64,000 bases of DNA from Bacillus massiliglaciei. Its GTDB lineage: Bacteria > Bacillota > Bacilli > Bacillales > DSM-1321. Location: positions 62,001 through 126,000 of the forward strand of contig NZ_LT622359.1 of the NCBI RefSeq assembly GCF_900098925.1. The letters are read 5' to 3'. This document shows positions 3,964 through 58,319 of this stretch, piece after piece. Numbering within the stretch: the stretch's first letter is position 1; every line of letters starts with the position of its first letter. The position numbers and the translations under genes were made by a program. Below the pieces are notes generated by a model. That model saw only the letters and a program-made list of their open reading frames with translations. It was not told the DNA's origin and did no database searches.

Positions 3964-3997
3964 AAGAGTAGAATAATATTTTTTTGAGGTGGTTTGC

Positions 3998-4243
3998 TTG
4001 AAACTGAAGTTGTTCTACAAAACACAGCGTGAATTAGCAGTTGCTTTCAATGAAATTATAGATGCCTATTGGGACAATACTCTTAACGAGAACGAGTTAA
4101 TTTCAAAAATCAACGGGATATACATGAACAATAAAAGCAAAGTTATTAGAAGTAATGAATTTACGACCGTATTAAGGCAACAATGTGGAAAGAGAAGGCT
4201 TGAGGTAGTGGAGAGAATATTGATCTTACAAGGGCATAAGTAA
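3998..4243 (+). CDS. Small leader-gene protein of the BREX operon
   Basis: An 81-residue protein if read from TTG at 3998, which has GAGGTGG five bases upstream; an alternative GTG at 3989 would overlap that site. The protein is charged, mostly helical, and has no catalytic motif I recognise. It ends 27 bases before brxA and reads the same way, so it is probably part of the operon. It may belong to the small TIGR04540-type family, but I could not check this. A regulator or accessory of BREX is a guess from position alone. Confidence 0.65.
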   Translation: MKLKLFYKTQRELAVAFNEIIDAYWDNTLNENELISKINGIYMNNKSKVIRSNEFTTVLRQQCGKRRLEVVERILILQGHK

Positions 4244-4270: not shown

Positions 4271-4867
4271 ATGAGTAAAGAATTATTATATGGTGCGAAT
4301 TTAACCGGAGCATCTTTTTTATTTCTTGAACTTAAGCAAGTAATTCGATTAATAGAAGACGGGTTATCAGAAAAAGAAATAAAGGAAAAAATCCTTTCAG
4401 ACAACATCTTTCAGTATGAAAAAACATCAAGTCTGAAAAGGATGATCCCTTCTCTGTTGAAAAGGGCTAGTATTTTGGATAAGGATATGCAACGGATGAT
4501 ACTCGAAGAACCAGTAGATATAGGGAAGACAATCAACTTATATGCCATTATGAAGACAGACCTCTTATTTTTTGAGTTCATGAACGAGGTAATTAAGGAA
4601 AAGCTTCAAACCAATGATTATATGTTCGAAAAGAAAGACATAAATACATATTTCACTTATAAAGCAGAGCAAGATGAAAAAGTAGCTGGCTTTAGCGAGC
4701 AAACTGTAAATAAATTAAAGCAGGTATTTATAAGAATATTGCTTGAAGTTGGGATATTGAAAGATAAACGGTCAGGAGAATTAAATCGTCTATTTTTAGA
4801 TGATCGTATAAAAGAACATTTATTGCGTATTGGAGACAAGCATTTTGTCCGAGCGATGGGTGTGTGA
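4271..4867 (+). CDS. brxA: BREX protein BrxA (DUF1819)
   Basis: A 198-residue protein with the BrxA/DUF1819 character: N-terminal GANLTGASFLFLE and a helical body. In type 1 BREX it is the first core gene, and the family is known as a small, NusB-like fold protein able to bind DNA; its exact role in phage defence is unsettled. ATG start follows AAGGAAGGG at a good distance. It is followed, 11 bases after its stop, by brxB, in the standard type 1 order. Length fits the family. Confidence 0.93.
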   Translation: MSKELLYGANLTGASFLFLELKQVIRLIEDGLSEKEIKEKILSDNIFQYEKTSSLKRMIPSLLKRASILDKDMQRMILEEPVDIGKTINLYAIMKTDLLFFEFMNEVIKEKLQTNDYMFEKKDINTYFTYKAEQDEKVAGFSEQTVNKLKQVFIRILLEVGILKDKRSGELNRLFLDDRIKEHLLRIGDKHFVRAMGV

Positions 4868-4878
4868 GAGGTGTTATT

Positions 4879-5445
4879 ATGAGCAATTTGAACGCAAGAC
4901 TCGACAGGGTTATTCCTAAAATTAAAGCGGACAAGTTCATTGATGGGCGAGGACTTGGTAATGAAATTAGTTTTTATGTATTTGATTATGAGCCAAGTGA
5001 CGAGCTAATTGTTCGTGATCGAATTATTGATTTTAAAAAGGAATTCAGTTATGAAGGTTCTAACCGAAGGATTATCGAGTTTGATCTTTATAAGATGTTA
5101 CTTGAAATCGCAAAAGAAAAACGAATTTTTGACCGAGTATTTCAAGTAGAAGAAAAGCAGGGGAAAGACGCTTTATTTAAAGCCATGACTACTTTTGCTA
5201 AACCTGATATTTTTTTGAATAAAATTAAAGAGCAACTTGGTGATTATAATGTTGTTTTTCTAACAGGAGTAGGAAAAGTATATCCGTTTGTTCGCTCACA
5301 TAATATTTTAAATAATCTACAAGAAGTAATAGATAAAATACCAGTCATTATGTTTTTTCCTGGTAAATATGATGGTCAATCACTTCAATTATTTGGTAAA
5401 TTTAAAGATGATAACTATTACCGAGCTTTTCGATTAGTTGAATAG
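4879..5445 (+). CDS. brxB: BREX protein BrxB (DUF1788)
   Basis: A 188-residue DUF1788 protein of the BREX core. The start is the ATG at 4879 with GAGAGGTG upstream, rather than the GTG at 4864 that would overlap brxA. The end of the chain (VVFLTGVGKVYPFVRSHNIL, then PVIMFFPGKYDGQSL) is the typical BrxB signature of a predicted P-loop-like fold. BrxB is required for type 1 defence; a scaffold role with BrxC/PglZ is the usual inference. It is 17 bases from brxC, so translation is probably linked. Confidence 0.93.
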   Translation: MSNLNARLDRVIPKIKADKFIDGRGLGNEISFYVFDYEPSDELIVRDRIIDFKKEFSYEGSNRRIIEFDLYKMLLEIAKEKRIFDRVFQVEEKQGKDALFKAMTTFAKPDIFLNKIKEQLGDYNVVFLTGVGKVYPFVRSHNILNNLQEVIDKIPVIMFFPGKYDGQSLQLFGKFKDDNYYRAFRLVE

Positions 5446-5462
5446 GGAAAAGGGGGATTTCG

Positions 5463-8400
5463 ATGATTATTAAAGATATGTTTCAAAAGGATATTGAACG
5501 TGACATAAGAGGCGTTATTAAGGTAGCACAAACCGATGAAACTAATATTTGTCAAGAACTTGATGAATATGTCGTTACAAGAGAGCTTAATAAGCACTTA
5601 TCCAAATTCTATGAGAATTATCAAAAAGGAATTGACGGAGCTACAGATAAGATGGGTGTATGGATTTCAGGCTTCTTCGGCTCAGGTAAATCACACTTTC
5701 TTAAAATCTTAGCTTATTTGCTTGAAAATAAAAAAGTTAAAGATAAAAAAGCCATTGAATTCTTTCAAGATAAAATTCAAGATCCTCTTATTTTAGCCAA
5801 TATGAACCGTACAGCTAATTTAGAAACGGAAGTCATTCTTTTCAATATTGATTCAAAGGCGGGAATGGATAGTAAGTCTAAGGAGGATGCTATTCTACGT
5901 GTGTTTATGAAAGTTTTCTATGAGCATAGGGGGTACTTTGGCGATATTCCTGGCGTTGCTGAAATGGAAAAATACTTGGATAAAAAAGGTGCATTTGAAG
6001 AATTTAAGGCGGAGTTCAAGAACCTTGCAGGCGAGGAATGGGTTGAACGCCGAAACACCTTCTATTTTGATGCTGATTTCGTTATTGGGGCCTTAACGAA
6101 AGTTACAGAGATGTCAGAAGAATCAGCTCGTAACTGGTTTGAAAATGGCGTAAATAACTTTGAAATTAGCATAGAAAAGTTCGCCAAGGATGTTAAGGAG
6201 TACATAGATCAAAAGGGAAAGAACTTTCATCTTGTATTCTTAGTCGATGAAATTGGTCAGTTTATTGGAGATAGCCGAAACCTGATGCTCAATCTACAAA
6301 CAGTAGCCGAGGATTTAGGGACACATTGTCAAGGTAAAGTTTGGATCATGGTTACATCCCAAGAAAGCATTGATAGCATTGTAAAGGTTAAAGGAGACGA
6401 TTTTTCCCGTATCCAAGGTCGCTTTGATACAAGACTATCTTTATCTTCTATTTCAGTTGATGAAGTTATTAAAAAGCGTATCCTTCTTAAAAAGGAAGTA
6501 GCAAATGATAAGCTCAGATTGCTCTTCCCTGAAAAGAGTGCCATTCTCAAAAACTTAATCAGCTTCAAAGAAAGTACCGCTGATTTACGTGGATATGATA
6601 ATGAGCAAGAATTTGCGGATGTGTACCCATTCATTCCTTACCAGTTTAAGCTACTTCAAATCGTATTTGAACAAGTACGTAAGCATGGTTCTTCAGGGAA
6701 GCACCTTTCCGAAGGGGAACGCTCCATGCTATCAGCATTTAAAGAAGCGGGGTTACGTTATAAGGATGCTGAGGAAGGGGCTGTCATTCCTTTTTATGCT
6801 TTTTATGACACAATCAAGGAATTCTTAAATCCTTCTATTTCAAGGGTTATAGATGGAGCGTATGATAACCCTGCTCTTAGAGATGATGAATTCAACATGG
6901 AATTATTGAAAGTGTTGTTCATGATTAAATACATTAAAGAGTTACCTGCAAACATAGATAATATTGCAACTTTAATGGTAACAAGCATTGATGAAGATAA
7001 GTTAGAATTAAAAGAGAAAATTAAGGTGGCTTTAAGGAAGCTCATTAACCAAACTTTGGTTCAAAAAAATGGAGAGTATTATATTTTCCTTACAGATGAC
7101 GAGCAGGACATTAATCGTGAAATCAAAACGATCAATGTGGATGAAGACCTAATAAAAAGAGAGCTTGCCAACTATATCTTCCAAGACCTTTATGATGAAA
7201 AGAAATACCGTTATTCTGCACAATATTCATTCTCCTATAATCAAAAGATGGATGAAAAGAATTACGGAAACCAAACATCAGCAATAGGGCTTAACATTTT
7301 ATCACCAATTTCAGACCACTATGCAGTGTCCGAGCAAGAGCTAATGCTGATTTCATCTGGAAATGACGAGTTAATCATTAAACTTGGTGGAAATGAATCT
7401 TACGTTGAAGAAATGGAAGAAGTATTGAAAATTGAGGAATACCGCAAGAAGAAGAACATTTCACAGCTTCCAGAAAGCATCCAAAACATCTTAAATAACA
7501 AACAAGTAGAGGTTCGTGAAAGAAGACGTAGAGTAAGAGAGATGTTAGAAGATGCGATTAAAGCAGGGAAGTTTTATATTAATGGCAATAACGCCGACAT
7601 CAAAGGCTCTACAGTTAAGGAAAAAATTAATGCTTCTTTACAATCATTAGTAGAGAACGTTTATACAAAGTTAGGGTACATTAATCAATTTATTGATAGT
7701 GATAGAGACATCCTTGCTATCCTAAATGCAAAAGAAGAGCAAATGACCTTTAGCAATGAAATGAAGCAAGTACCGAACGAATTGGCGTTGAAGGAGATAA
7801 CAGACTTTATCAATCTTCAAGATCAAATTAAGAAACAAGTCCGAGTACAAATTATTGTTGATCGCTTTAATGATAAGCCTTATGGTTGGCGTACACTTGA
7901 TATTCAGCGATCAATTGCTGATTTGCTAAAACAGCAAAAGATTCGTATTCGCTACAATTCGGAGTATTTAGAGCCTGAAGAAAGTGCAAGTAAAATTGTT
8001 ACGGTAATCACCAAGTCATCAGAGGCTGATAAAGCCATCGTGTTAAAACGTGTAAAAGTAGATGAAGCTCTTATTCAAACAGCGAAGAAAGTTTGTAAAG
8101 ATGTATTTAAGAAGACTGATTTACCAGATGATGAAGACGGCTTGGTGAAGGAAATTAAATCATTAATTGAACAGCAGAAAGTAGAAATTGACGCTCTAAA
8201 AGCTCGCTATGAAGGTAGAAAATACCCTGGTATGAGTTTGCTTGATAAAGGGTTAGAGTATTTTAGTCATTTCAATAATAGCTTAGATAATGCTTCGTTC
8301 TTTACGAAGTTAAGTGAGTTGAAAAAAGACTTGAGTAATTGGGAATATGATATGGGTTATTTAAAGAGCTTCTTCAATACAAATCAAAAGAATATTTTCG

Positions 8401-9056
8401 ACAAAGGTCTCTTAGCCGTAAACAAGTATGAAGAAAATAAGCCATACTTCATAAATGATAATGTAGATCAAACTGCCAATAAATTGAAGGACATTCTTGC
8501 TGATCCAGAACCATATGGAAAGATAAAACAAATTCCAGACTTATATGATGCGATTCAACAACAAATCGAAATGGTTTTGGAAGAAAAGAGAAAGAATGCA
8601 AAAGAAAAAATTAAAATTGATTACGACTATCTTGCGTTAATGTCTAAACAAGAGGGTGTATCAAGTATGACAAGGGAACGTGTCAGTGATTACTATGACA
8701 GTTTGATGAACAATGTGGAGGACTTCACTGACATATTTAAGGTAGATGCTACAATTACTCAAAGTTACAGTTTCAAGGATAACCATGAACGCAAGATCCG
8801 CCAAGAAATCCAAGAATGGAAAGATAGTCAAGGTGGAGATGACGGTGGTGATAGTGGAAGAACAGGTACGGGTGGAACTGATAATCCTACAGGTGGAACT
8901 ACAATTACAATTGAAAAACAAAAGGTCAAGGTAACTGAACTTCTTGCGATCAAAACATTAAGTTCAGAAGATGACGTTGATATGTATATAAGTACACTTT
9001 CAAATAAGCTAAAGGATATTATCAAATCCAATAAACATATTGAGTTTATTGATTAA
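5463..9056 (+). CDS. brxC: BREX ATPase BrxC
   Basis: A 1197-residue P-loop ATPase. Walker A is GFFGSGKSH at residues 70-78 and Walker B is LVDEIGQF near residue 259-266. The length is normal for BrxC/PglY. The long C-terminal half is coiled and charged. Near the end there is a low-complexity linker rich in Gly, Asp and Thr (about residues 1125-1150) before a final helical tail. BrxC is a core BREX component needed for both methylation and exclusion, thought to act with BrxB, PglZ and PglX on DNA. ATG start with GGGGGAT upstream. pglX follows after 15 bases. Confidence 0.95.
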   Translation: MIIKDMFQKDIERDIRGVIKVAQTDETNICQELDEYVVTRELNKHLSKFYENYQKGIDGATDKMGVWISGFFGSGKSHFLKILAYLLENKKVKDKKAIEFFQDKIQDPLILANMNRTANLETEVILFNIDSKAGMDSKSKEDAILRVFMKVFYEHRGYFGDIPGVAEMEKYLDKKGAFEEFKAEFKNLAGEEWVERRNTFYFDADFVIGALTKVTEMSEESARNWFENGVNNFEISIEKFAKDVKEYIDQKGKNFHLVFLVDEIGQFIGDSRNLMLNLQTVAEDLGTHCQGKVWIMVTSQESIDSIVKVKGDDFSRIQGRFDTRLSLSSISVDEVIKKRILLKKEVANDKLRLLFPEKSAILKNLISFKESTADLRGYDNEQEFADVYPFIPYQFKLLQIVFEQVRKHGSSGKHLSEGERSMLSAFKEAGLRYKDAEEGAVIPFYAFYDTIKEFLNPSISRVIDGAYDNPALRDDEFNMELLKVLFMIKYIKELPANIDNIATLMVTSIDEDKLELKEKIKVALRKLINQTLVQKNGEYYIFLTDDEQDINREIKTINVDEDLIKRELANYIFQDLYDEKKYRYSAQYSFSYNQKMDEKNYGNQTSAIGLNILSPISDHYAVSEQELMLISSGNDELIIKLGGNESYVEEMEEVLKIEEYRKKKNISQLPESIQNILNNKQVEVRERRRRVREMLEDAIKAGKFYINGNNADIKGSTVKEKINASLQSLVENVYTKLGYINQFIDSDRDILAILNAKEEQMTFSNEMKQVPNELALKEITDFINLQDQIKKQVRVQIIVDRFNDKPYGWRTLDIQRSIADLLKQQKIRIRYNSEYLEPEESASKIVTVITKSSEADKAIVLKRVKVDEALIQTAKKVCKDVFKKTDLPDDEDGLVKEIKSLIEQQKVEIDALKARYEGRKYPGMSLLDKGLEYFSHFNNSLDNASFFTKLSELKKDLSNWEYDMGYLKSFFNTNQKNIFDKGLLAVNKYEENKPYFINDNVDQTANKLKDILADPEPYGKIKQIPDLYDAIQQQIEMVLEEKRKNAKEKIKIDYDYLALMSKQEGVSSMTRERVSDYYDSLMNNVEDFTDIFKVDATITQSYSFKDNHERKIRQEIQEWKDSQGGDDGGDSGRTGTGGTDNPTGGTTITIEKQKVKVTELLAIKTLSSEDDVDMYISTLSNKLKDIIKSNKHIEFID

Positions 9057-9071
9057 GCAGGAGTTGTCGCT

Positions 9072-12000
9072 ATGAATAAATCTGCATTAAAAGTCTTTGC
9101 TTCGAGTGCCAGAAAAGAGCTATTGAAAAAAGTCGAAGCAAAGGCAATGAAAATCGGAATTACAGAGGATAACATCAAGAAAGCTGAAATAGAAAGTTCG
9201 GATGCCATCTACATAGATGGCAAACAGCTTTCAAAACAAGAAAAAGACCAAAGAGACCGACTAGTTGATCGGATTAACCAAATAGGATTTAAACGAGTAA
9301 TGGAAGAAGTAGCTTATACTTGGTTTAACCGTTTTACTGCTTTGCGTTATATGGAAGTTAATGAGCATCTACCTACAGATGTGCGTGTTCTATCTTCAAC
9401 CAATCCAGAAAGTGCTGATCCAGATATGATTAATGAAGCACTTTCACTTGATTTAGAGATTGATAAAGAGTACGTGTATGAACTAAAACTGAACAATAAA
9501 ACAGAAGAAATATTCAAGTATCTGATTATTAAACATTGCAATGACCTTAATCGTTATCTTCCGTTTATGTTTGAAACAATAGATGACTATACAGAAATTC
9601 TCTTTCCAGAGGGTTTGTTAGCCAAGGATTCCTTTATTCGTGAAATGACTAATATTGAAGTCATTCCAGAGGATAATTGGAGAAAGGTTGAAGTTATCGG
9701 CTGGCTATACCAATATTACATTGCAGAAGAAAAAGATCGTGTTATCAAAGCGAAAAAGAAATACAAAACAGAAGAAATACCATTTGCTACTCAACTTTTT
9801 ACGCCTGACTGGATTGTACGCTATATGGTTCAGAACTCTTTAGGCCGCTATTGGATAGAGTCACATCCAGAGCATAGAGATTTACTGAGTAATTGGGAGT
9901 ATTATCTTGAAAACCCTAATCCTGAATCAGATTTTGAGGGGAAAATTGCTCCATATATTAACAAAGAGCTAAAAGTCGAGGACATTAAATGTTTCGATCC
10001 TGCAATGGGTAGCGGTCATATTCTTGTGTATATGTTTGATGTTCTGTATGAAATCTATAGCAAATGCGGATATGTGGAGAGAGAAATTCCAAGGTTAATT
10101 ATTGAAAATAACCTATATGGTTTAGATATTGATGATCGAGCATATCAGCTTGCATGTTTCTCGGTTGTAATGAAGGCTTTAGAGTATAATGATCGTTTCT
10201 TTAGAAGTATTGAGAGGGATGGATTGACTCTAAACTTAACGTCAATACAAGAAACTAATAATCTAACACATGAAGATATTACTTATTTGGCAGGAGAGCC
10301 TTCTGAAGAAAAATTTGAACTAATGGAGCAGTTCTTGAAGCAATTTCAAAATGCAAAAACTATTGGTGCTTTAATAAAACTTCATCTTTCTGATTTAAAT
10401 TTTTTACAAGAACGCATCACAATGTTAGATAAAAATTATGGTGACCTGTTTGAAATGGAAATGAAAGATAGGTTACTTAACTTATATAAGGATATTGTAA
10501 AACAATTTTCTATAATGAATAATAAATATGATGTGCTTGTAACAAATCCACCGTATGTAGGAAATAAGTATTTAACTGATGATCTGTCAAACTATTTATC
10601 ACTATATTATCAAGATGTAAAAACAGATCTGTTCTCTGCGTTTATTGAATACAGTTTCAATGTTGTAAATGAAAATGGACATATAGGTTTCATGACACCT
10701 TTTGTTTGGATGTTCATTTCTTCTTATGAAAAGCTAAGAAATAATATTAATCAAAATAGGAATATTAGTAGCTTGATTCAACTTGAATATTCAGGGTTTG
10801 AGGAAGCAACTGTACCTATTTGCACATTTACTTTGAGGAACTATTTTAGTAATACAGAGGGAGATTATATAAAGTTATCAGATTTTAGAGGTGCTAAAAA
10901 TCAATCTATTAAGACTTTAGAGGCTTGTCAAAACCCTAATGTTAAGTATCGTTATAGCTTTAATCAAGTAAATTACAGTAAAATTCCAGGAAGTCCAATA
11001 GCATACTGGGTAAATAAAAAAGTTATCTCAATTTTTGAAAAATCAAAAAGATTTTCTGACATTATTGAGGCTAAGCAAGGTTTAAAAACAGCAGATAATG
11101 ATAGATTTCTAAGAAGATGGTTTGAATGTGATTTTAGTAAAATCGGATTCAATTTTACTTCAAGAGAATTGGCGAAGAACTCGAATTATAAATGGTTTCC
11201 TTATAATAAAGGTGGTTCATTTAGAAAGTGGTATGGTAATCAGGAATTTGTTGTAAATTGGGAGAAGGATGGGTTAGAGATTAGGGAATTTAGGACTGAA
11301 GCAGGAAAACTAAAATCTCGACCACAAAATCTTAATTACTTTTTTAAAGAATCTGTATCCTGGTCTGATGTAACGTCAAGTAAGAACGCATTCAGATATT
11401 ACCCAGAAGGTTTTATTTTTGATGCGACTGGTCATTCTTCCTTCCCTAATGAAAATGTAAAAAGTTCTCATATATTAGGAGTTCTAAACAATAAGTTTTT
11501 TGAAGAAATAATTAAATTAATTAGTCCTACCATGCACTTTGATATTGGTTATTTTAATAAGCTACCAGCTGTGATAATACAAAGCAAACAATTTGAAGAA
11601 ATTGTAGAAGAAAACATAGAAATAGCCAAGTTAGATTGGGACTCTTTTGAAACTTCATGGGAGTTTCAGAAACATCCATTTATAGGATTTGGTATAAAAA
11701 ATATTGAGTCAGCATTCAATCGTTGGAAAGAGTTTAAAGAGAAACAGTTCAAAACTATGAAACACAATGAAGAAAGACTTAACGAGATATTTTTTGAAAC
11801 TTATGACTTAAAAACTGATTTAACAATAGAGGTTGAAGAGCGGGATATAACCATTACTAAAGCTGAATTAGAGAATGATATAGTAAGTTTCATATCATAT
11901 GGAGTTGGTTGTATTTTCGGTAGATATTCAATTGATGAATCAGGTCTTATATATGCAGGAGGACAATTTGATCCCACTAAATATCAATCGTTGCAAGTAG

Positions 12001-12584
12001 ATAAAGACAACATCCTACCGATTCTTCCAGGAGCTTACTTTGAAGATGATATTGTTTCAAGGTTTATTGATTTTGTACAAGTTACTCTTGGAGTAGAAAC
12101 TTTAACAGAAAATCTGGAATTTATAGCAGAAGCACTTGGTAAGAGAAAAGGTGAAACTGCTAAAGAAACGATTAGACGTTACTTCTTAAATGATTTTTTC
12201 AAAGACCATGTTCAAACGTATAAGAAACGCCCTATTTATTGGTTATTTACATCAGGTAAGCAAAAGGCATTTAACTGCTTAATCTATATGCACCGCTATG
12301 ATAAGACTACAATATCACGTATTCGTACTGATTACTTACATGAATATCAAATTCGTTTAGACGCTGAGCGTAAGTCTCTTGTAAGTATTATTGAGGGAGA
12401 TTCAACTACAAAAGAAATAAGTAATGCTAAAAAAGAAATAAAGGCTTTAGATAAGAAGATTGAGGAGCTAAATGAATATGATGAATTGTTGCACCATATG
12501 GCGGATATGCAGATTGAAATAGACTTAGATGACGGCGTTGCTATAAATTATGAGAAGTTTAATGGGCTTGTAACAAAAATATAG
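9072..12584 (+). CDS. pglX: BREX adenine methyltransferase PglX, copy 1
   Basis: An 1170-residue N6-adenine DNA methyltransferase. The SAM motif DPAMGSGHILV is at about residue 308 and the catalytic NPPY at about 491. In type 1 BREX PglX methylates a non-palindromic 5-6 base site on host DNA and is also required for defence. The N-terminal 400 or so residues and the last 230 or so are almost the same as those of the next gene, while the region after NPPY (roughly residues 500-900, expected to hold target recognition) differs strongly. ATG start with CAGGAG upstream. It is 16 bases from the second copy. Confidence 0.95.
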   Translation: MNKSALKVFASSARKELLKKVEAKAMKIGITEDNIKKAEIESSDAIYIDGKQLSKQEKDQRDRLVDRINQIGFKRVMEEVAYTWFNRFTALRYMEVNEHLPTDVRVLSSTNPESADPDMINEALSLDLEIDKEYVYELKLNNKTEEIFKYLIIKHCNDLNRYLPFMFETIDDYTEILFPEGLLAKDSFIREMTNIEVIPEDNWRKVEVIGWLYQYYIAEEKDRVIKAKKKYKTEEIPFATQLFTPDWIVRYMVQNSLGRYWIESHPEHRDLLSNWEYYLENPNPESDFEGKIAPYINKELKVEDIKCFDPAMGSGHILVYMFDVLYEIYSKCGYVEREIPRLIIENNLYGLDIDDRAYQLACFSVVMKALEYNDRFFRSIERDGLTLNLTSIQETNNLTHEDITYLAGEPSEEKFELMEQFLKQFQNAKTIGALIKLHLSDLNFLQERITMLDKNYGDLFEMEMKDRLLNLYKDIVKQFSIMNNKYDVLVTNPPYVGNKYLTDDLSNYLSLYYQDVKTDLFSAFIEYSFNVVNENGHIGFMTPFVWMFISSYEKLRNNINQNRNISSLIQLEYSGFEEATVPICTFTLRNYFSNTEGDYIKLSDFRGAKNQSIKTLEACQNPNVKYRYSFNQVNYSKIPGSPIAYWVNKKVISIFEKSKRFSDIIEAKQGLKTADNDRFLRRWFECDFSKIGFNFTSRELAKNSNYKWFPYNKGGSFRKWYGNQEFVVNWEKDGLEIREFRTEAGKLKSRPQNLNYFFKESVSWSDVTSSKNAFRYYPEGFIFDATGHSSFPNENVKSSHILGVLNNKFFEEIIKLISPTMHFDIGYFNKLPAVIIQSKQFEEIVEENIEIAKLDWDSFETSWEFQKHPFIGFGIKNIESAFNRWKEFKEKQFKTMKHNEERLNEIFFETYDLKTDLTIEVEERDITITKAELENDIVSFISYGVGCIFGRYSIDESGLIYAGGQFDPTKYQSLQVDKDNILPILPGAYFEDDIVSRFIDFVQVTLGVETLTENLEFIAEALGKRKGETAKETIRRYFLNDFFKDHVQTYKKRPIYWLFTSGKQKAFNCLIYMHRYDKTTISRIRTDYLHEYQIRLDAERKSLVSIIEGDSTTKEISNAKKEIKALDKKIEELNEYDELLHHMADMQIEIDLDDGVAINYEKFNGLVTKI

Positions 12585-12600
12585 TAAATTAGGTGGTACT

Positions 12601-15600
12601 ATGAATAAATCTACATTAAAAGCCTTTGCGACCAATGCCAGAAAAGAGTTACTGAAAAAAGTCGAAGCAAAGGCAATGAAAATTGGAATTACAGAGGATA
12701 ACATAAAGAAAGCTGAAATTGAAAGCTCGGATGCTATCTATATAGATGGCCAACAGCTTTCAAAGGAAGAAAAAGTGCAAAGAGACCGACTCATTGGTCG
12801 GATTAACCAAATAGGATTTAAACGAGTGATGGAAGAAGTCGCTTATACCTGGTTTAACCGTTTTACAGCTCTGCGTTATATGGAAGTCAATGAGTATCTA
12901 CCTACAGATGTACGTGTTTTATCTTCAACTAATCCAAATAGTGCTGATCCAGATATGGTTAATGAGGCGTTATCACTCGATTTAGAGATTGATAAAGAGT
13001 ACGTGTATGAACTGAAATTGAACAATAAAACAGAAGAGCTATTCAAGTATCTGATTATTAAGCATTGCAATGACCTTAACCGTTACCTTCCGTTTATGTT
13101 TGAAACAATAGATGATTACACAGAAATTCTATTTCCAGAGGGCTTGTTAGTAAAGGATTCTTTTATTCGTGAAATGACTGATTGCAATGTTATTCCAGAA
13201 GATAATTGGATGAAGGTTGAAGTTATTGGTTGGTTATATCAATATTACATTGCGGAAGAGAAAGATAGAGTCTTTAAAGAGAAAAAGAAATATAGGCCAG
13301 AAGAGATTCCGTTTGCAACTCAGCTTTTTACACCTGATTGGATTGTAAGGTATATGGTTCAGAACTCATTAGGCCATTATTGGATTGAATCACATCCAGA
13401 ACATAGTGATTTACTAAACAATTGGGAATTCTATCTTGAAAGCTCTATTTCCGAAACAAAATTTGAAGAAAAACTTACTCCATATATTAATAAAGAGCTT
13501 AATGTAGAGGATATCAAATGTTTTGATCCTGCAATGGGTAGCGGTCATATTCTTGTTTATATGTTTGATGTTCTTTATGAGATCTATAGCAAGTGTGGAT
13601 ATATGGAGAGAGAGATACCAAAATTAATTATTGAAAATAACATATACGGTTTAGATATCGATGATCGAGCATATCAGCTTGCATGTTTCTCCGTTGTAAT
13701 GAAGGCCTTAGAATATAATGAGCGATTCTTTAGAAGTATTGAGAGAGAAGGATTAAAATTAAACTTAGCCTCAATTCAAGAGACCAATAATCTTAATGAA
13801 GAGGATATCATTTTTATTGCAGGAGAAGATAGTGGCACCTTATATGAAAAAATTAGTAACTTTATCAATAAATTTCAAGATGCAAAGACTATTGGTTCAT
13901 TAATTAGGTTGGATACTTATGAAAAGAACTTCTTAAATGAAAGATTAATAAACATTAATAATAATCCTCCTAAAGATTTATTTGAGGAGGAAATAAGAAA
14001 GAAGGTTTTAGAACTTCTACCAAAACTTATTATTCAAGCAGAGATAATGACTACTCGGTATGACATTTTAGTAACTAATCCACCTTACATGGGGAATAGA
14101 TATATGAATGAAAAGTTATCTCAATTTCTTGTTAAGGAATACCCAGATTCAAAACTTGACACTTTTGCTTCTTTTATGGAAATAGATCACTACTTGAAAC
14201 CGTTTGCGTTATTTTCGCTAATTAATCAACACTCTTGGATGTTTATATCTAGTTACGAAAAGTTAAGAGATAAGATACTAAAAAATAAAAACATTTGTTC
14301 TATGTTGCACTTAGGAACAAGGGCATTTGAAGATATAGGCGGAGAAGTCGTCCAGACAACTGCATTTGTATTAAGAAACGGTTATATTCCCAAAATGACT
14401 GGAATCTTTTTAAGATTGGTTGATTTTAAGGGGGCAAAAGAAAAGCAAGTAAAAACAATTGAAGCTATTCAAAATTCAAGGGTAAATTATAAGTATATTT
14501 GTAATAATGAAAGTTTTAAACAAATAAAGGGATTACCAATTGCATATTGGGTTAGTGAGAGAGTAAGGGGAATATTTGATAAATCTATATCTATAAGAGA
14601 AATTGCTAAACCGAGGGTCGGTCAAAATACTGGAGATAATAATAGATTTTTAAGACAATGGTTTGAGGTAGATTTCAAAAAAATAGGTTTTAATTACCAA
14701 AGCCGTGAAGATGCTCTCAATAGTTATAATAAGTGGTTTCCTTACAATAAAGGTGGTAAGTTCAGAAAATGGTATGGTAATCTTGATTACGTGATTAATT
14801 GGGAAGACGATGGAAAAGAGATTAAAGATTATGCCGTAATTAGAAATAAGGGAAAACATTGGTCAAGGTATATACAGAATTTAGACTACATTTTTAAAGA
14901 GGGGTTAACTTGGTCTGACATTAGTGGATCCAGCTTCGGGGTAAGATATTTGGAAAGTGGGTTTATCTTTGATGTTACTGGCTCTATGGCGTTTCCTTCA
15001 AAGGAAGACATTTATTATATAACTGCTTTCCTTTGCTCTAAAATTTCATATGAATTTTTAATTATGTTGAATCCTACGCTACATTTTCAAACTGGCAATA
15101 TTGCTAACCTACCAATTATTTTTACTGAGGATAGTAGAATAAAGAAGAGAATAGATGATTTAGCGAGAATTAATATAGAGATATGCAAGGTAGACTGGGA
15201 TTCATATGAAATTTCTTGGGATTTTAAAGTGCATCCTTTGCTTATTAATTCAGGGATTTCAACAATAGAAGATTCTTTAAAGTTGTGGAATGAAAGTGTT
15301 CAAGGTAGGTTTAAACTTCTAAAAAGTAATGAAGAAGAAATTAACAAAATATTTATTGATATATATGGATTAAATAATGAGATCTCACCTGTTGTAGATG
15401 AAGAAAATGTGATTATCAGAAGGGAAGGTTCAGAAAGTGATATAAAATCATTTATTTCATACGCAGTTGGTTGCATTTTTGGAAGATACTCGCTTGATAC
15501 TGAGGGTTTGATATACGCAGGTGGAGAGTTTGATCCAAATAGATACAAAAATTTTTCCATTGATAAAGATAATATAGTTCCTATATTACCAGGTGCGTAT

Positions 15601-16146
15601 TTTGAAGATGATGTTGTTTCAAAATTTATTGATTTTGTAAAAACCTCATTTGGTGAAGACTCATTGCATGAAAATCTGGATTTTATTGCAGAGAACCTTG
15701 GAAGGAAAAAAAGTGAAACTGCAAAAGAGACTATAGGACGTTATTTCCTTAATGAATTCTTTAAAGATCATGTAAAAACATATAAGAAAAGACCAATTTA
15801 TTGGTTGTTCACATCAGGAAAACAAAAAGCATTCAACTGCTTGATATATATGCACCGTTATGATCAGACAACCTTATCTCGAATCCGTATGGATTACTTA
15901 CATGAATATCAAATTAGATTAGATACCGAAAGAAAGTCCCTTGTAAGTATTATTGAAGGTCACTCTACAACAAAAGAAATTAGTAACGCTAAGAAGGAAC
16001 TAAAGGCATTAGATAAAAAGATTGAAGAGCTAAAAGATTACGATGAACTGTTACACCATATGGCAGATATGCAGATTGAAATAGACTTAGATGATGGTGT
16101 TGTTGTAAATTATGAGAAGTTTCAAGGGCTTGTAGCAAAAATATAA
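12601..16146 (+). CDS. pglX: BREX adenine methyltransferase PglX, copy 2
   Basis: An 1181-residue paralogue of the preceding gene, with DPAMGSGHILV at about 308 and NPPY at about 492, both intact. DNA as well as protein is very similar over the first 1.2 kb and the last 0.7 kb, so this is a tandem duplication, with the central part replaced or diverged. Both copies look functional, with no stops or frameshifts. The likely outcome is two methylation specificities in one BREX operon. The long flanking identity could also let the copies recombine with each other. ATG start with AGGTGG upstream. Confidence 0.95.
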   Translation: MNKSTLKAFATNARKELLKKVEAKAMKIGITEDNIKKAEIESSDAIYIDGQQLSKEEKVQRDRLIGRINQIGFKRVMEEVAYTWFNRFTALRYMEVNEYLPTDVRVLSSTNPNSADPDMVNEALSLDLEIDKEYVYELKLNNKTEELFKYLIIKHCNDLNRYLPFMFETIDDYTEILFPEGLLVKDSFIREMTDCNVIPEDNWMKVEVIGWLYQYYIAEEKDRVFKEKKKYRPEEIPFATQLFTPDWIVRYMVQNSLGHYWIESHPEHSDLLNNWEFYLESSISETKFEEKLTPYINKELNVEDIKCFDPAMGSGHILVYMFDVLYEIYSKCGYMEREIPKLIIENNIYGLDIDDRAYQLACFSVVMKALEYNERFFRSIEREGLKLNLASIQETNNLNEEDIIFIAGEDSGTLYEKISNFINKFQDAKTIGSLIRLDTYEKNFLNERLININNNPPKDLFEEEIRKKVLELLPKLIIQAEIMTTRYDILVTNPPYMGNRYMNEKLSQFLVKEYPDSKLDTFASFMEIDHYLKPFALFSLINQHSWMFISSYEKLRDKILKNKNICSMLHLGTRAFEDIGGEVVQTTAFVLRNGYIPKMTGIFLRLVDFKGAKEKQVKTIEAIQNSRVNYKYICNNESFKQIKGLPIAYWVSERVRGIFDKSISIREIAKPRVGQNTGDNNRFLRQWFEVDFKKIGFNYQSREDALNSYNKWFPYNKGGKFRKWYGNLDYVINWEDDGKEIKDYAVIRNKGKHWSRYIQNLDYIFKEGLTWSDISGSSFGVRYLESGFIFDVTGSMAFPSKEDIYYITAFLCSKISYEFLIMLNPTLHFQTGNIANLPIIFTEDSRIKKRIDDLARINIEICKVDWDSYEISWDFKVHPLLINSGISTIEDSLKLWNESVQGRFKLLKSNEEEINKIFIDIYGLNNEISPVVDEENVIIRREGSESDIKSFISYAVGCIFGRYSLDTEGLIYAGGEFDPNRYKNFSIDKDNIVPILPGAYFEDDVVSKFIDFVKTSFGEDSLHENLDFIAENLGRKKSETAKETIGRYFLNEFFKDHVKTYKKRPIYWLFTSGKQKAFNCLIYMHRYDQTTLSRIRMDYLHEYQIRLDTERKSLVSIIEGHSTTKEISNAKKELKALDKKIEELKDYDELLHHMADMQIEIDLDDGVVVNYEKFQGLVAKI

Positions 16147-16157
16147 AGACAGTCATG

Positions 16158-16192
16158 AGGATATACCAGTGATGACTGGTGTATCCTTGTTT
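16158..16192 (+). terminator. Terminator-like hairpin inside the BREX operon
   Basis: AGGATATACCAGT (16158-16170) pairs with ACTGGTGTATCCT (16175-16187) over a 4-base loop, followed by TGTTTT. It fills the 77-base gap between pglX copy 2 and pglZ, the widest gap in the operon. The U tract is weak, so partial termination or mRNA processing is more likely than a full stop. Confidence 0.6.
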
Positions 16193-16223
16193 TATGAAGT
16201 TTTTTGTAAAGGGGTGAGTTCAT

Positions 16224-18776
16224 TTGAATTTAGATCAAATCATTAAAACATTGACGACAACTTTCAAAGAGTCGCTAAATGACGGTGAACAAAGAAAGAT
16301 TATCTTTTGGGTAGATAAGGATAAAGAATTTGTTGAAGAAATAGACACTCTTTCCTTGGATAATGTGAAGATACATAAATTGACGGAGCAAAACCAATTT
16401 TATTCAAAGTATTTACTGGAAGAAGAAGATCCTACTTCCCCTTACCTTGTTTATACAAATGACGAAATTGATGTTGAAGAGAACTGGCTAATTGACACTG
16501 TATATTATTCAAAAAAGTTTTATGCGGATAAGCTCTCTTTATTATTAGATGACATTGGTATTGATCCTTCATTAAGAGCTACTGTAAAAAAATACGAGAA
16601 ATTCTTTAATAAGAAACATACGCAGAAGTTTAAGTCATATGGAATTCAATCTTACACAGAGGAAGCAATCGAAATAGCCATTATGAGTGTGCTTTGTAAT
16701 TTAAAAACACCAGACTTTGAAGAAGTTACTAAGACGATCTTAAAGGACAGCTTAATTGAACAAGACAACAAATATATAGGGTTAATAGAGAAGTATTTTG
16801 ATGTCACTGTATTTTGGAAATACGCTTCTAACATGTACGGCTATGATCGGGAAGAGAAGTCATTAAAGACATTGTTTATGCACTTAACAATTACTGCATT
16901 AAGCCATGCAATAGATGAACAGCACCTTTCGAATGTTAAGAGCTTTATTTCCGAGAGAAACAAACCAAACGGGTTAGTGTTTATAGACCATTGGATGCAC
17001 CATAAGACGGACTATGTTATTTATAATGAATTGGCCGAAAGCATCGAACAGGAAATAAAGATAACCGATATTGTCAATGCTCTATCAATTGATGTTTTCA
17101 AGCAAGCAGATACGTTTCCTTATTTTGATAAGGCAATCATTATTTTCATTGCAAATAGTTTAGAAGCAGGTCATGAGGATTACGAAGAATATAGTAAGCT
17201 AATCAATCTAAGAAGAGTTAAACACTTCTATGAAAGATATCAGTTTATTTATGAAGCCTTATTCTATACTGTGAAGATGTATGAATTCTACAAAAAGTAC
17301 CAGTCAGGAATACCAAAAGCATCAACGAGTGAAATGTGGAAGAGCTATGTTACAGAATATAACGCTATGGATACATACTACCGTAAGTTTTACGTAGCTT
17401 TTGATAACGAACCAAATAGTGAAATTCTTAAAAAATTGAAAGCCATGATTGAAAACTTATACACCAATTGGTACATGGGAGATTTAAGTTCACATTGGTC
17501 ACAGTCCTTAGATGAAATAAGAGATAAGTGGGAGCTTCCAGGAGTGACGAATCAGCAAGATTTTTATAGACGTTATGTGGAACCTAAAGTAAGAAAAGGC
17601 GAAAGAATGTTTGTCATCATCTCAGATGCTCTTCGTTACGAGGTCGGGGTAGAGATAGCGGATAAACTGAATGCTGAAACAATGGGTGCATGTGAAATAG
17701 AACCGTTACTTGGAGTTTTACCATCTGTTACAAAATTAGGAATGGCTTCTTTGTTACCACATCGGAATATAGATATTGATGAAAATGTGAGAGTCTTAGT
17801 AGATGGTAAGTCTTCAAGTGGATTGGAAAATCGAAAAGAGATAATTGAGTCTGCTGTACCCGATAGTGTTGCAATTCATGCCCAAGAAATGATGGCAATG
17901 AATAAGGCAGGAAGAAGAGAATACTTTAAAGGCAAGAAACTAATTTATATTTATCATGATACGATTGATGCTCATGGCGATAAAGCCACAACGGAAGTCT
18001 ATACCTTTAATGCAGTGGAGAAGGCCATTGATGAAATCTCTACACTTGTTAAAATCATTAGAGATGATTTGTCAGGAACCAACCTATTGATAACTGCTGA
18101 CCATGGCTTTGTTTATCAAAGGGAACCATTAGTTGAAAGTGATAAGATCCAAAAAGAGGATATCCAGACCATTGAAGTAAAAAGAAGATACATGCTTTCT
18201 AAAGAGGTAAGACAGATGGATGGCATATTGAATGTTAATCTAAGTTCAATCATCAAGAATGAGCAACAATTAACAGCGTATGTGCCAAAATCAACGATTC
18301 GCTTTAAGATACAAGGTTCGGGTGTTAATTTTGTTCATGGTGGAGCAAGTCTACAGGAACTTGTTGTACCATTAATCTCTTACAAAAACATTCGCAGAGG
18401 ACAAACTAACAGTCGTGAAATCGTAAAGGTAGATATTAAGCTAACGAACACAACTCGCAAGATTACCAATAGTCTATTCCATCTATCCTTTTTCCAAACA
18501 GAAAAGGTAGAAGAAAAGGTTGTGCCAAGGTCAGTATTAATTTATATGGCTGACGAAGACGGTTCTGTGATATCCAATGAGGAAACTATTATTGGTGATA
18601 GAACATCGGATAATCCAGAAGAACGTACATTTAAACTACGATTTGCTCTTAAAACGATTACCTATGATAAAAATAAGTCATACTTTTTAACAATAAAAGA
18701 TGTAGAAACGGGTGTCATTCTTGAAAGAATACCTTTTACAATTAACTTAGGAATTGTTAGTGAATTTGATTTTTAA
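16224..18776 (+). CDS. pglZ: BREX phosphatase-fold protein PglZ
   Basis: An 850-residue PglZ protein of the alkaline phosphatase superfamily. The metal-site motifs are visible: VIISDALRYEVG at about residue 464, HDTIDAHGDK at about 575, and ITADHGF at about 622. PglZ is the hallmark protein of BREX and Pgl systems; a nuclease or phosphodiesterase activity on nucleic acid is proposed for the family. The N-terminal 450 residues are helical, the last 150 form a beta-rich tail. Start is TTG with AAGGGGTGAG upstream. brxL follows after 18 bases. Confidence 0.95.
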   Translation: MNLDQIIKTLTTTFKESLNDGEQRKIIFWVDKDKEFVEEIDTLSLDNVKIHKLTEQNQFYSKYLLEEEDPTSPYLVYTNDEIDVEENWLIDTVYYSKKFYADKLSLLLDDIGIDPSLRATVKKYEKFFNKKHTQKFKSYGIQSYTEEAIEIAIMSVLCNLKTPDFEEVTKTILKDSLIEQDNKYIGLIEKYFDVTVFWKYASNMYGYDREEKSLKTLFMHLTITALSHAIDEQHLSNVKSFISERNKPNGLVFIDHWMHHKTDYVIYNELAESIEQEIKITDIVNALSIDVFKQADTFPYFDKAIIIFIANSLEAGHEDYEEYSKLINLRRVKHFYERYQFIYEALFYTVKMYEFYKKYQSGIPKASTSEMWKSYVTEYNAMDTYYRKFYVAFDNEPNSEILKKLKAMIENLYTNWYMGDLSSHWSQSLDEIRDKWELPGVTNQQDFYRRYVEPKVRKGERMFVIISDALRYEVGVEIADKLNAETMGACEIEPLLGVLPSVTKLGMASLLPHRNIDIDENVRVLVDGKSSSGLENRKEIIESAVPDSVAIHAQEMMAMNKAGRREYFKGKKLIYIYHDTIDAHGDKATTEVYTFNAVEKAIDEISTLVKIIRDDLSGTNLLITADHGFVYQREPLVESDKIQKEDIQTIEVKRRYMLSKEVRQMDGILNVNLSSIIKNEQQLTAYVPKSTIRFKIQGSGVNFVHGGASLQELVVPLISYKNIRRGQTNSREIVKVDIKLTNTTRKITNSLFHLSFFQTEKVEEKVVPRSVLIYMADEDGSVISNEETIIGDRTSDNPEERTFKLRFALKTITYDKNKSYFLTIKDVETGVILERIPFTINLGIVSEFDF

Positions 18777-18794
18777 GATAAGGGAGGGATATTA

Positions 18795-20843
18795 TTGGAG
18801 AGCGGACTAAATGCACTGGACTTAGATAAGAAATTAAATGAAGTCTTTGCTGGTCGAGTGGTCAGAAAAGATCTTACTAAGCTCATTAAAGAGGGAGCGA
18901 ACGTACCTGTATATGTTTTGGAATATCTGTTAGGTATGTATGCGGCCACTGATGAAGAAGAGAGTATAAAAGAAGGGGTAGCCAGAGTAAAGAAGATTCT
19001 TTCGGAAAACTTTGTACGCCCTGATGAAGCTGAAAAAATCAAAAGTAAGATCCGAGAAGTCGGTCAGTATTCCATCATCGATAAGATAACTGTTCGACTA
19101 AACCCTAAAAAGGATACCTATGAAGCGGAATTCTCCAACTTAGGGTTAAAAGATGTTCCCATTTCATCAAACTATGTTAAAGAGTTTGATAAACTCTTAG
19201 CAGGGGGCATCTGGTGTATGTTAAAAATGGACTATTATTATGATGAAGAGCAGAAAAATATGAGTCCATTTAGCATTAGCAACTTAAAACCAATCCAAAT
19301 GCCTAATATGGATTTAAACGAGATAATTGAGGGGCGAAAGGAATTCACAAAAGATGAATGGATTGACATTCTAATTCGTTCAACAGGAATGGAGCCTACT
19401 CAAATAAATGATCGTGTAAAATGGCATTTATTATTACGGCTTGTTCCACTCGTTGAAAATAACTACAATGTGTGTGAGCTTGGCCCCAGGGGAACGGGAA
19501 AATCACATGTTTATAAAGAGATAAGCCCCAATTCCATCTTGGTATCGGGTGGTCAGACAACAGTAGCGAATCTCTTTTACAATATGTCTTCAAGAACGGT
19601 TGGTCTTGTTGGTATGTGGGATGTCGTGGCATTTGATGAAGTAGCGGGTATTAAATTTAAGGATAGAGACGGAATTCAAATCATGAAGGATTATATGGCA
19701 AGCGGTTCTTTTGCCAGAGGGAAAGAAGAGAAAACTGCCAGTGCCTCCATGGTTTTTGTAGGTAATATCAACCAAAGTGTTGATTCTTTAATCAAAACAT
19801 CTCATTTATTTGCTCCTTTTCCAGAAGGAATGAATAACGACTCAGCTTTCTTTGATCGAATGCACTATTACCTGCCTGGTTGGGAGATTCCGAAAATGCG
19901 ACCTGATTTCTTTACAGATCGCTATGGATTTATTGTAGATTATTTAGCTGAGTATTTTAGAGAAATGAGAAAGCGGTCATTCGGGGACTCGATTGATCAG
20001 TTCTTTAAACTTGGTAATAACCTAAATCAACGTGATGTAATTGGTGTAAGAAAAACTGTTTCTGGCCTTATAAAGTTATTGTACCCTCATGGGGAATATA
20101 CAAGAGAGGATGTTGAAGAAGTTCTACAATATGCTCTTGAAGGTCGTAGACGTGTAAAAGAACAACTAAAGAAAATTGGCGGTATGGAATTTTATGATGT
20201 AATGTTCTCCTACATAGACAAGGAATCCTTACAAGAAGAACATGTTTCTGTCCCTGAGCAGGGCGGAGGCAAGTTAATTCCTGAAGGGATGGGAAAACCA
20301 GGTCATGTTTATTCAGTTGGTGTAGGTGAATCTGGTATGATTGGTGTCTTCAAACTCGAAAATCAGGTTGTATCGGGATCAGGTAAATTTGAAAAATCGG
20401 GTGTTGGTTCTAATCGTGCTGTAAAAGAAAGTTTGGATACAGCTTATCGTTACTTTACGGCAAATAGTAAGAGCATTAGTGGTACGATATCGATTAAAAC
20501 AAAAGATTATCTTATGCATATAGCTGATTTGCAAGGAATTGGATTAACTCCTCAATTAGCTGTTGCTGAATTAATAGGATTATGTTCTGGTGCTTTAGAG
20601 AGGCCTGTACAGGAAAGCACAGTTGTATTAGGTAACATGACCGTAGGAGGAACAATAGAGAAGGTAGAAGAACTGGCTAATGTCCTCCAGGTTTGTATCG
20701 ATGCGGGAGCTAAAAAGGTATTAATTCCTGCATCATCGGTAGTAGACTTTCAAACAGTTCCATCTGATTTGTTAATTAAAGTACAACCAATATTCTATTC
20801 TGATCCGATTGATGCTGTATTTAAGGCGTTAGGAGTCGGGTAA
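18795..20843 (+). CDS. brxL: BREX AAA+ protein BrxL (Lon-like)
   Basis: A 682-residue protein, the last core gene of type 1 BREX. It has an AAA+ module with Walker A GPRGTGKSH at about residue 229 and Walker B VVAFDEVAG at about 277, and a C-terminal Lon-protease-like fold (TVVLGNMTVGGTIEKVEEL, then GAKKVLIPASS). At the place where Lon has its GPSAG serine motif, this protein reads GLTPQLAVA, so the usual catalytic serine is not there and proteolysis is doubtful. BrxL is needed for phage exclusion but generally not for methylation. TTG start with AAGGGAGGG upstream. Confidence 0.94.
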   Translation: MESGLNALDLDKKLNEVFAGRVVRKDLTKLIKEGANVPVYVLEYLLGMYAATDEEESIKEGVARVKKILSENFVRPDEAEKIKSKIREVGQYSIIDKITVRLNPKKDTYEAEFSNLGLKDVPISSNYVKEFDKLLAGGIWCMLKMDYYYDEEQKNMSPFSISNLKPIQMPNMDLNEIIEGRKEFTKDEWIDILIRSTGMEPTQINDRVKWHLLLRLVPLVENNYNVCELGPRGTGKSHVYKEISPNSILVSGGQTTVANLFYNMSSRTVGLVGMWDVVAFDEVAGIKFKDRDGIQIMKDYMASGSFARGKEEKTASASMVFVGNINQSVDSLIKTSHLFAPFPEGMNNDSAFFDRMHYYLPGWEIPKMRPDFFTDRYGFIVDYLAEYFREMRKRSFGDSIDQFFKLGNNLNQRDVIGVRKTVSGLIKLLYPHGEYTREDVEEVLQYALEGRRRVKEQLKKIGGMEFYDVMFSYIDKESLQEEHVSVPEQGGGKLIPEGMGKPGHVYSVGVGESGMIGVFKLENQVVSGSGKFEKSGVGSNRAVKESLDTAYRYFTANSKSISGTISIKTKDYLMHIADLQGIGLTPQLAVAELIGLCSGALERPVQESTVVLGNMTVGGTIEKVEELANVLQVCIDAGAKKVLIPASSVVDFQTVPSDLLIKVQPIFYSDPIDAVFKALGVG

Positions 20844-24074: not shown

Positions 24075-24308
24075 GTTCAAAGATGGAGTGGCGGAACCGT
24101 CGAACAAACCTGTTATTTGTAGATTTTTTAGTGGTCTTTTTTAAGATGGGAGCTTTTCGCTGTATCTCCTTCGAAACAAATCATTTGATTTGGAAGGATC
24201 AGATGGCTAATATGGTAATATCGTAAATTATCGATTTGGCATGATGCTTTCAAATCATCTATGCAGCTTCCATTGGGATATAGTGATAATCGATATAGAA
24301 AGAGGCAA

Positions 24309-24656
24309 ATGACATTGAAGCAGGAATTGGAAAGCTTAAATGATGAACAAGCCGTTGAAATTTTTAAGGCATTGTCGAACCAGACGAGGGTGAGCATTCT
24401 TCAAATGTTAAAAAATCCCCACAGTCATTTTTCACCGCAAGCCCATATTATTGCTGATGAAGGATTTGAAGGCGGGGTTTGCGTAGGGGATATCCGAAGC
24501 AAGGCGGGGATTTCGCAATCCACTACTTCACAGTATTTATCGATTCTGCTGCAAAGCGGACTTGTTGAAATAAAGCGAATCGGACAATGGACGTATTATC
24601 GCCGTAATGAGGAGACGATTAAAAAGTTCGAAAAATACATTGGTACAAAAATTTAA
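24309..24656 (+). CDS. ArsR-family regulator
   Basis: A 115-residue winged-helix regulator. FKALSNQTRVSILQML opens the DNA-binding domain and SKAGISQSTTSQYLSILLQ is the recognition helix region; QWTYYRRNEETI is the wing. The classic metal motif ELCVCDL is replaced by GGVCVGDIRS with a single Cys, so a thiol or organic signal is more likely than a metal. Start ATG 24309 has AGAGG upstream. It is 11 bases from a luciferase-like monooxygenase gene and probably controls it. A close paralogue (56625-56966) stands before the paralogous monooxygenase. Confidence 0.9.
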   Translation: MTLKQELESLNDEQAVEIFKALSNQTRVSILQMLKNPHSHFSPQAHIIADEGFEGGVCVGDIRSKAGISQSTTSQYLSILLQSGLVEIKRIGQWTYYRRNEETIKKFEKYIGTKI

Positions 24657-24667
24657 GGAGAATTGAA

Positions 24668-25627: not shown

Positions 25628-25670
25628 GATTAGCTTTTAATAAAATTAGATAAGGGAAGAAGATGAACTT

Positions 25671-26693: not shown

Positions 26694-27030
26694 AAAGAGG
26701 ACATCAGCAAGGAAACCTTCTTGATGATTTTTCTAAGGCATTGAATATGGGTGAAACCGTGAGATCAGGTTATGAGGTTGTTTACAGGATTCCTTAATTA
26801 AAAGGAGATCTGATCAAGTATTTCTATGTGCCGCAAGCAGGATTTGACATCACGAAATCTTCCAAAATACATCATCATCATTAAACAAGTGACAGAGCGA
26901 TACTAATTGTTTTTATACTCCCATAGATCTAGCAGTAACATATACTAAACACGGTAGATTACTTATATTTATTGTGTTAAATGAGAATAATACCAACGAT
27001 GCTTTTCCAAATTTAAGGGGGCTTATCATT
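26694..27030. other. Gene-free stretch with an unassigned reading-frame remnant
   Basis: From about 26747 a frame reads MGETVRSGYEVVYRIP, stop, then LKGDLIKYFYVPQAGFDITK to a stop at about 26886. It looks like a broken small gene but I recognise no family. The last 100 bases should hold the promoter of the PfpI gene. Confidence 0.35.
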
Positions 27031-27543: not shown

Positions 27544-27628
27544 TAGGTACTGAATAGTATCGTTTTAGAAATAAATTTCACAATGAATGATCAATACAAA
27601 AAGGGTTTTAAGAAGGAAGGGTTTTATT

Positions 27629-53253: not shown

Positions 53254-53419
53254 CTTATTTTCTCCTTTTGTTTATATCGGGTTTGTTAAAGGTTTTTGCC
53301 ATTTAGAAAATCGATAAGATAGACTACACAATTTTTTTGACAGGCACTTTTTTATATTCTATACAAAAAATTCACTGTGAAACATTAAAAGCTTGCCGTA
53401 GGGATCGCGCAGTTTTGAC

Positions 53420-54445: not shown

Positions 54446-54600
54446 ATGCTCATCTTCTTTCTTTAAAAATTTCGTTTCAATCCTATAAAAGAATTTACAG
54501 GTTGTTTTCTTTGTCTTTTTTTACTGCTTCAATCTAAGTCACATTAATATAACTGTTTAACATCTGCAGAAATTACATCCTTTATTAGACTAGACACTGT

Positions 54601-58301: not shown

Positions 58302-58319
58302 TGGAAGGGGGCTACCATT

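Follow-up and report, generated by a model that had tools for sequence, protein, structure and literature searches.

Type 1 BREX systems exclude phages and carry N6-methyladenine (m6A, also written 6mA) at base 5 of a six-base, non-palindromic site. The specificity factor of BREX is PglX (PMC11341690). Here, we analyse a 64,000-nucleotide (nt) stretch of the Bacillus massiliglaciei genome (assembly GCF_900098925.1, contig NZ_LT622359.1, positions 62,001 to 126,000; hereafter the window), in which gene order, Pfam, NCBIfam and PADLOC identify a complete type 1 BREX operon. It runs on the + strand as brxA-brxB-brxC-pglX-A-pglX-B-pglZ-brxL, with the core genes and both pglX at 4271-20843. The single-PglX systems of B. 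cereus H3081.97, E. coli HS, Salmonella, E. fergusonii and Acinetobacter 394 have the six core genes, the PglX family, the catalytic motifs and the domain plan in common with it, whereas the window holds two full-length tandem pglX genes, plus a Shedu-like gene after brxL. The question raised by this locus is whether one BREX machine is served by two specificity subunits at once. We consider this likely, with a probability of roughly 0.68: judged from the sequence, both subunits would work, giving two methylated motifs and double exclusion.

Two full-length pglX genes with unlike centres

9072..12584, + strand: pglX-A, intact, 1170 amino acids (aa); NF033452 1426 bits; DPAMGSGH at residue 309, NPPY at 492; ribosome-binding site AGGAG
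12601..16146, + strand: pglX-B, intact, 1181 aa; NF033452 1434 bits; DPAMGSGH at residue 309, NPPY at 493; ribosome-binding site AGGTGG
9072..10271, + strand: conserved 5' block of pglX-A, codons 1-400; 87.0% DNA identity with pglX-B
12601..13800, + strand: conserved 5' block of pglX-B, codons 1-400; 87.0% DNA identity with pglX-A
10272..11891, + strand: divergent specificity block of pglX-A, codons 401-940; 55.9% DNA identity with pglX-B
13801..15450, + strand: divergent specificity block of pglX-B, about codons 401-950, from the alignment with pglX-A

The two genes lie on the same strand, 16 nt apart, and are open over their full length, as a first reading made from the letters of this DNA (the sequence-only reading) had described. 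Both pass NF033452, the NCBIfam model of BREX-1 PglX, at its curated cut-off of 500 bits. The S-adenosylmethionine-binding and NPPY catalytic motifs are present in both proteins, with N508 and Y511 aligned in each, and the spacers upstream of pglX-A and pglX-B (GCAGGAGTTGTCGCT and TAAATTAGGTGGTACT, respectively) each hold a ribosome-binding site.

Identity between the two genes is not uniform along their length. Codons 1-400 agree at 87.0% in DNA and 88.7% in protein, codons 401-940 at 55.9% and 43.5%, and codons 941-1170 at 78.6% and 81.3%. The near-equal first 1.2 kb described by the sequence-only reading was thus recovered, while the last 0.7 kb, which it had described in the same way, is only 79% alike in DNA; identity returns gradually from about residue 930 and reaches 90% only in the last 31 codons. 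The centre does differ, and the divergent block includes the recognition domain, but the 5' break was found at about residue 400, some 92 residues upstream of NPPY and not after it as had been proposed. This break is sharp, with sliding-window identity falling from 0.92 (residues 341-370) to 0.61 (residues 391-420). Because it precedes NPPY, the divergent block begins inside the methyltransferase domain, whose second half it covers, and goes on through the recognition domain and beyond. The longest run identical in both genes is 35 nt.

The ratio of nonsynonymous to synonymous substitution rates (dN/dS) between the genes is 0.11 in codons 1-400, where dS is about 0.56. Over residues 490-840, with dS near saturation, it is 0.16 for A against the pglX of Bacillus sp. 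REN16 (locus L025) and, for B, 0.26-0.39 in comparisons with four others. These ratios lie well below 1 and, as far as they tell, place both pglX under purifying selection.

Ancestry of the ends and of the centre

Like ends around an unlike centre are the ordinary profile of the PglX family, so the pattern is partly generic here. Among 53 proteins of more than 1,100 aa, median identity is 0.70 in residues 1-400, 0.40 in 490-640, 0.36 in 640-840 and 0.73 in 940-1170. This raises the possibility that the pair is nothing special, in that any two PglX would be alike in this way and the likeness of the ends would reflect family conservation only. We compared the pair with other PglX in a set of 99 rows, 97 of which were compared with A and B; open reading frames (ORFs) below 1,050 aa were left out of the tandem-pair comparison, of the ranking and of the contact-residue alignment. 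Where a genome had been fetched twice, its copies were recognised by identical C-terminal sequence and counted as one.

The 3' block speaks for mere family conservation, since in codons 941-1170 one of the 97 rows (L045) exceeds B in DNA identity to A, and no row exceeds A in identity to B; the 5' ends of another tandem pair, L029, are likewise not each other's closest. The 5' block speaks against it. In codons 1-400 the DNA identity of A and B is 0.870, compared with 0.812 for the best other row, and they use the same codon at 75.5% of identical residues (best other row 0.636); 0 of 97 rows equals the pair in either measure. Seen from A, B ranks 1 of 78 in both codons 1-200 and 201-400, 2 in codons 941-1170 and 10 to 41 in four segments of the centre. 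Together with the 5' tree below, in which the pair is joined at high support and a grouping of A with L025 is rejected, these values leave family conservation as a highly improbable account of the likeness.

Of 79 distinct full-length PglX, 44 entered the trees: A, B and every sequence whose residues 940-1170 are 70% or more identical to those of A. In the 5' DNA tree, A and B stand together with support of 100/99; placing A with L025 is rejected (p=3e-43), as is placing A with L025 and L005 (p=3e-76). In the tree of the centre (residues 401-940, LG+G4, bootstrap not settled), A stands instead with L025 at 100/99, and grouping A with B is rejected (p=0.0066). L025 is a single-copy pglX with the centre nearest to that of A, while the centre of pglX-B has no close relative among the sampled PglX. 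Since the 5' tree joins A to B and the centre tree joins A to L025, at least one of the two genes is, on these trees, a mosaic. As to direction, the centre of A may have been acquired, or that of B, or the 5' ends may have been made alike.

The E. coli population offers a wider view of such exchange. The pglX of E. coli HS (compare L097:25799-29416) was matched in 351 of 5426 genomes at 353 places. In this high-identity search a match over at least 80% of the gene was found in 4 of the 351 genomes and was lacking in the other 347; among the matches listed, 55 of 60 rows consist of two pieces reaching both gene ends. As in the window pair, the ends match across strains and the centre often does not, whereas E. 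coli nearly always has one place per genome, unlike the window. Judged from these sequences, pglX generally seems to trade its centre within a frame that stays conserved, and holding two copies at the same time seems exceptional.

The mosaic ancestry and the E. coli pattern, where centres were seemingly exchanged over evolutionary time, would also suit a specificity reservoir, in which recombination at the shared flanks would let one copy supply the other. This is close to the swappable second cassette that the sequence-only reading had offered as an alternative, and it fared poorly. No third pglX was found in the host genome (4.14 Mb, 18 contigs): a PglX family search gives two places, and searches with the specificity block of A and with its 5' 1.2 kb add no further one. 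The longest identical run is 35 nt, and the copies are direct repeats, between which a crossover would be expected to delete one gene and not to switch it. No recombinase or integrase was found among the 12 proteins scanned (87-21744), two of which (87-728 and 2147-3769) have no Pfam match. A search of both pglX for simple repeats that might switch them found no homopolymer of at least 8 A/T or at least 6 G/C, and GA and AT repeats of only 8-10 nt. We regard a reservoir as very unlikely.

Predicted DNA recognition and proposed use of both subunits

E. coli BrxX reads bases 1-4 with its recognition domain and base 6 with a methyltransferase loop (residues 587-601), and in E. fergusonii a shorter loop goes with T at base 6 (PMC11842806). 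The corresponding parts of the two window proteins are the following, with approximate limits:

10779..10826, + strand: pglX-A loop aligned to the E. coli base-6 loop, short type
14308..14367, + strand: pglX-B loop aligned to the E. coli base-6 loop, long type
10989..11579, + strand: pglX-A target recognition domain, aligned to E. coli BrxX 651-837 (limits from PMC11842806)
14530..15126, + strand: pglX-B target recognition domain, aligned to E. coli BrxX (limits from PMC11842806)

At the positions aligned to E. coli BrxX 681, 684, 751, 784, 785 and 823, A carries Q, K, Q, A, T and H and B carries V, N, Q, V, T and H; L025 has the same six residues as A. The base-6 loop of A is short (IQLEYSGFEEATVPICT) and almost the same as the loops of E. 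fergusonii and Acinetobacter 394, two enzymes with T as the last base of their sites; the latter is a further short-loop case with T at base 6 in this alignment. The loop of B is long (LHLGTRAFEDIGGEVVQTTA) and close to that of E. coli HS, whose site ends in G, and the Salmonella enzyme in the PDB alignment has a long loop and a site ending in G as well. The reported reference motifs are GGTAAG for E. coli HS, GCTAAT for E. fergusonii and GTAGAT for Acinetobacter 394 (PMC12707154, Table 2; PMC9122589). Genes of these three were fetched and aligned, Salmonella was taken from PDB alignments, and the base rules draw on none of the B. cereus, L. casei and Vibrio enzymes.

The H at the 823-aligned position of both A and B goes with G at base 4, as in Acinetobacter 394 (GTAGAT), and the work of Went et al. 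on residue 838 ties it to this base in the same way (PMC11341690). B and Acinetobacter 394, whose third base is A, have V and T at 784/785 in common, and both A and B carry Q where four references carry R and G at base 1. From the loop lengths, the H at 823 and the residues at 784/785, we predict that A methylates nnnGm6AT and B nnnGm6AG, perhaps nnAGm6AG; in both, the first base would be other than G.

Two specificities at once, the other interpretation offered by the sequence-only reading, is the best supported by sequence because the divergent block brackets the base-contact parts of E. coli BrxX and the aligned contact residues differ. We propose that PglX-A and PglX-B would be translated from one message and that each would occupy the one position for PglX in the BrxB-BrxC-PglX-PglZ complex, docking by way of its conserved N- and C-terminal regions. 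A BREX complex of BrxB, BrxC, PglX and PglZ has been described (PMC11842806), and BrxX is reported to act as a monomer in it (PMC12839542). Each protein would read its own six-base site through its own centre, so that two motifs would be methylated in the host, and phage DNA lacking the mark at either of them would be excluded. The pair may have arisen from copies that shared or exchanged their 5' ends, with the specificity block of at least one replaced by recombination.

If both PglX work, one BREX machine would have two self-marks and two targets, going beyond the single-copy model systems; there would be a reason for the repeated duplication of pglX, and the published base-contact rules would become directly testable. 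The window pair is a clean test case in this respect, as the predicted last bases differ (GAT versus GAG). Type I restriction systems with more than one HsdS use several specificity subunits with one machine. They work alike in this sense, although PglX is methyltransferase and specificity factor in one protein and is not Type I. The duplication of pglX is already in print, with Goldfarb 2015 cited (PMC11842806), as is its phase variation (PMC11341690). In the literature searched, with subscription papers mostly outside it, we saw no account of tandem PglX that are alike at their ends but differ in contact residues.

Several points weigh against two working specificities. The rejection of A with B in the centre (p=0.0066) comes from the plain LG model with an unsettled bootstrap, and a quick mixture-model tree of residues 490-840 joins A to L025 at 97 with a marginal rejection of A with B (p=0.053). 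The 3' DNA block does not set A and B apart from other genomes (p=0.30). Further, the contacts at 681, 684 and 751 were transferred across gapped stretches of the alignment, and three to four reference enzymes underlie the base rules. Finally, the BREX locus of L. paracasei Zhang has more than one methyltransferase gene, as in the window; there, 6mA is reported to be lost only when pglX is inactivated, and the second methyltransferase does not methylate (PMC10164179).

The L. paracasei result is the main reason for giving weight to a silent copy, that is, one PglX alone setting the methylome while the other is silent, inactive or regulatory. Loci of L. rhamnosus point the same way, having more than one pglX, as in the window, with a full gene and a partial one of 743 aa separated by an integrase (PMC7513527). 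The window differs from the latter in that both genes are full length and in one orientation and no recombinase was found. The catalytic motifs, the ribosome-binding sites and a dN/dS well under 1 in both genes also argue against a silent copy, which we consider unlikely.

Tandem pglX in other genomes

To place the pair of the window in context, we searched two sets of genomes, scoring two candidates per genome, which makes the copy counts lower bounds. An even draw from the order comprised 397 genomes; PglX matches reaching 1000 bits or more were found in 38 of these, and at least six of the 38 have two (G000, G124, G139, G177, G208 and G401). From the class, 398 genomes were searched and 25 gave a match at E up to 1e-200, in some cases a partial one; two intact genes are present in G000 and G763, and one intact plus one broken pglX in G624. 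With five genomes common to both draws, the sample amounts to 58 Bacilli with PglX, of which at least 7 have two intact pglX. This count includes the window and the doubtful G139 assembly, and it agrees with the statement of the sequence-only reading that most BREX operons have a single PglX. Additionally, 51 loci were found with PglX-A as query and are hence not an even sample; tandem intact pairs occur in L029 and L041. Plasmids gave 270 pglX places in 263 records.

Seven tandem pairs could be compared within the 99 rows. In the first 200 codons, the two members are closer to each other than to any other row in six pairs, L029 being the exception. The same holds for three of seven in codons 201-400, for three of seven in the 3' block and for none in the recognition domain (one tie). 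All seven pairs differ in one or more of the six contact residues, L059 in a single one. Pairing of different loop classes, found in six of the seven, was considered as a signal and is not claimed, as a rough estimate puts it within chance.

On these comparisons we lean slightly towards tandem pglX as a recurrent architecture in Bacilli, in which one BrxB/C/Z/L machine would use two interchangeable PglX, with the assembly ends kept alike and the specificity blocks (from before NPPY to about residue 940) kept different. If such recurrent multi-specificity is true, phages would need to escape two sites at once.

The same sampling bears on whether the tandem arrangement is a passing state, the second pglX being a recent gain of specificity and one copy being destined for loss, which may overlap in the short term with two working specificities. 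Most sampled relatives have one intact copy, and broken second copies occur in G624 and in Neobacillus sp. PS3-12 (L037, L053), where one BREX pglX is accompanied by further copies at two places, two of them broken. The 5' dS of about 0.56 and the lack of any identical run above 35 nt indicate that the pair of the window is not of recent origin, unless a close relative supplied one of the copies, and we think a passing state rather improbable.

Some individual loci deserve mention. In Neobacillus sp. PS3-12, some 180 kb separate pglX copies (L037/L053) from the BREX operon, and no brx genes were found in the 10 kb around these copies; in addition, brxL is followed by a broken pglX. In L059 the coding-strand order is pglX (truncated where the stretch ends), pglX, pglZ, pglX, making three PglX at one locus. 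An apparent PglX-PglX fusion in G763 (open frame of 2375 aa) was dropped, as the DNA shows two separate tandem genes (L100). The two intact pglX of G139 (L060/L061) are 99-100% alike in DNA over residues 1-490 with different recognition domains; this pair was not relied on as a case of live exchange, because the contig has runs of N and repeated contig ends and the assembly is suspect.

The operon and its surroundings

4271..4867, + strand: brxA; Pfam BrxA 4e-55, PADLOC BrxA
4864..5445, + strand: brxB; Pfam BrxB 5e-46
5463..9056, + strand: brxC; NF033441 1316 bits, cut-off 400
16159..16193, + strand: terminator-like hairpin with T-rich tail between pglX-B and pglZ; fold z -5.6
16224..18776, + strand: pglZ; TIGR02687 736 bits
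18795..20843, + strand: brxL; TIGR02653 1177 bits
20866..21747, + strand: Shedu-like sduA, directly 3' of brxL; Pfam SduA_C 3e-13, PADLOC SduA 4e-116

The pglX-pglZ position holds hairpins with altered yet still pairing stems in many Bacillales BREX loci, and the 16-nt spacer between A and B has no hairpin of this kind. A hairpin after pglX-B and none between A and B would fit a single message for brxABC and both pglX. In other BREX systems, transcription is reported to start before brxA and before pglZ (PMC12707154). The terminator scan of the window did not list the hairpin at 16159, and Rfam gave no match in window 1-30000 at E up to 1, the hairpin included. The promoter scan found fewer sites than its shuffles, and promoter and terminator scans were therefore not used.

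The Shedu-like sduA is probably a separate defence gene, and relatives of it occur downstream of brxL in L009 (split), L018, L032, L036 and L049 (short). On the other side of the operon, a small gene of the TIGR04540 family (3989-4243) lies just 5' of brxA, and a separate N6/N4 DNA methylase gene (1140-1844) lies further upstream. Beyond the operon, the gene sets at 24261-28345 and 52132-63294, judged by eye from their translations, look alike and are apparently duplicated; they comprise small-regulator, luciferase-like, ThiJ-like and short-chain dehydrogenase genes, and an IS21 element (32147-34452) lies between them.

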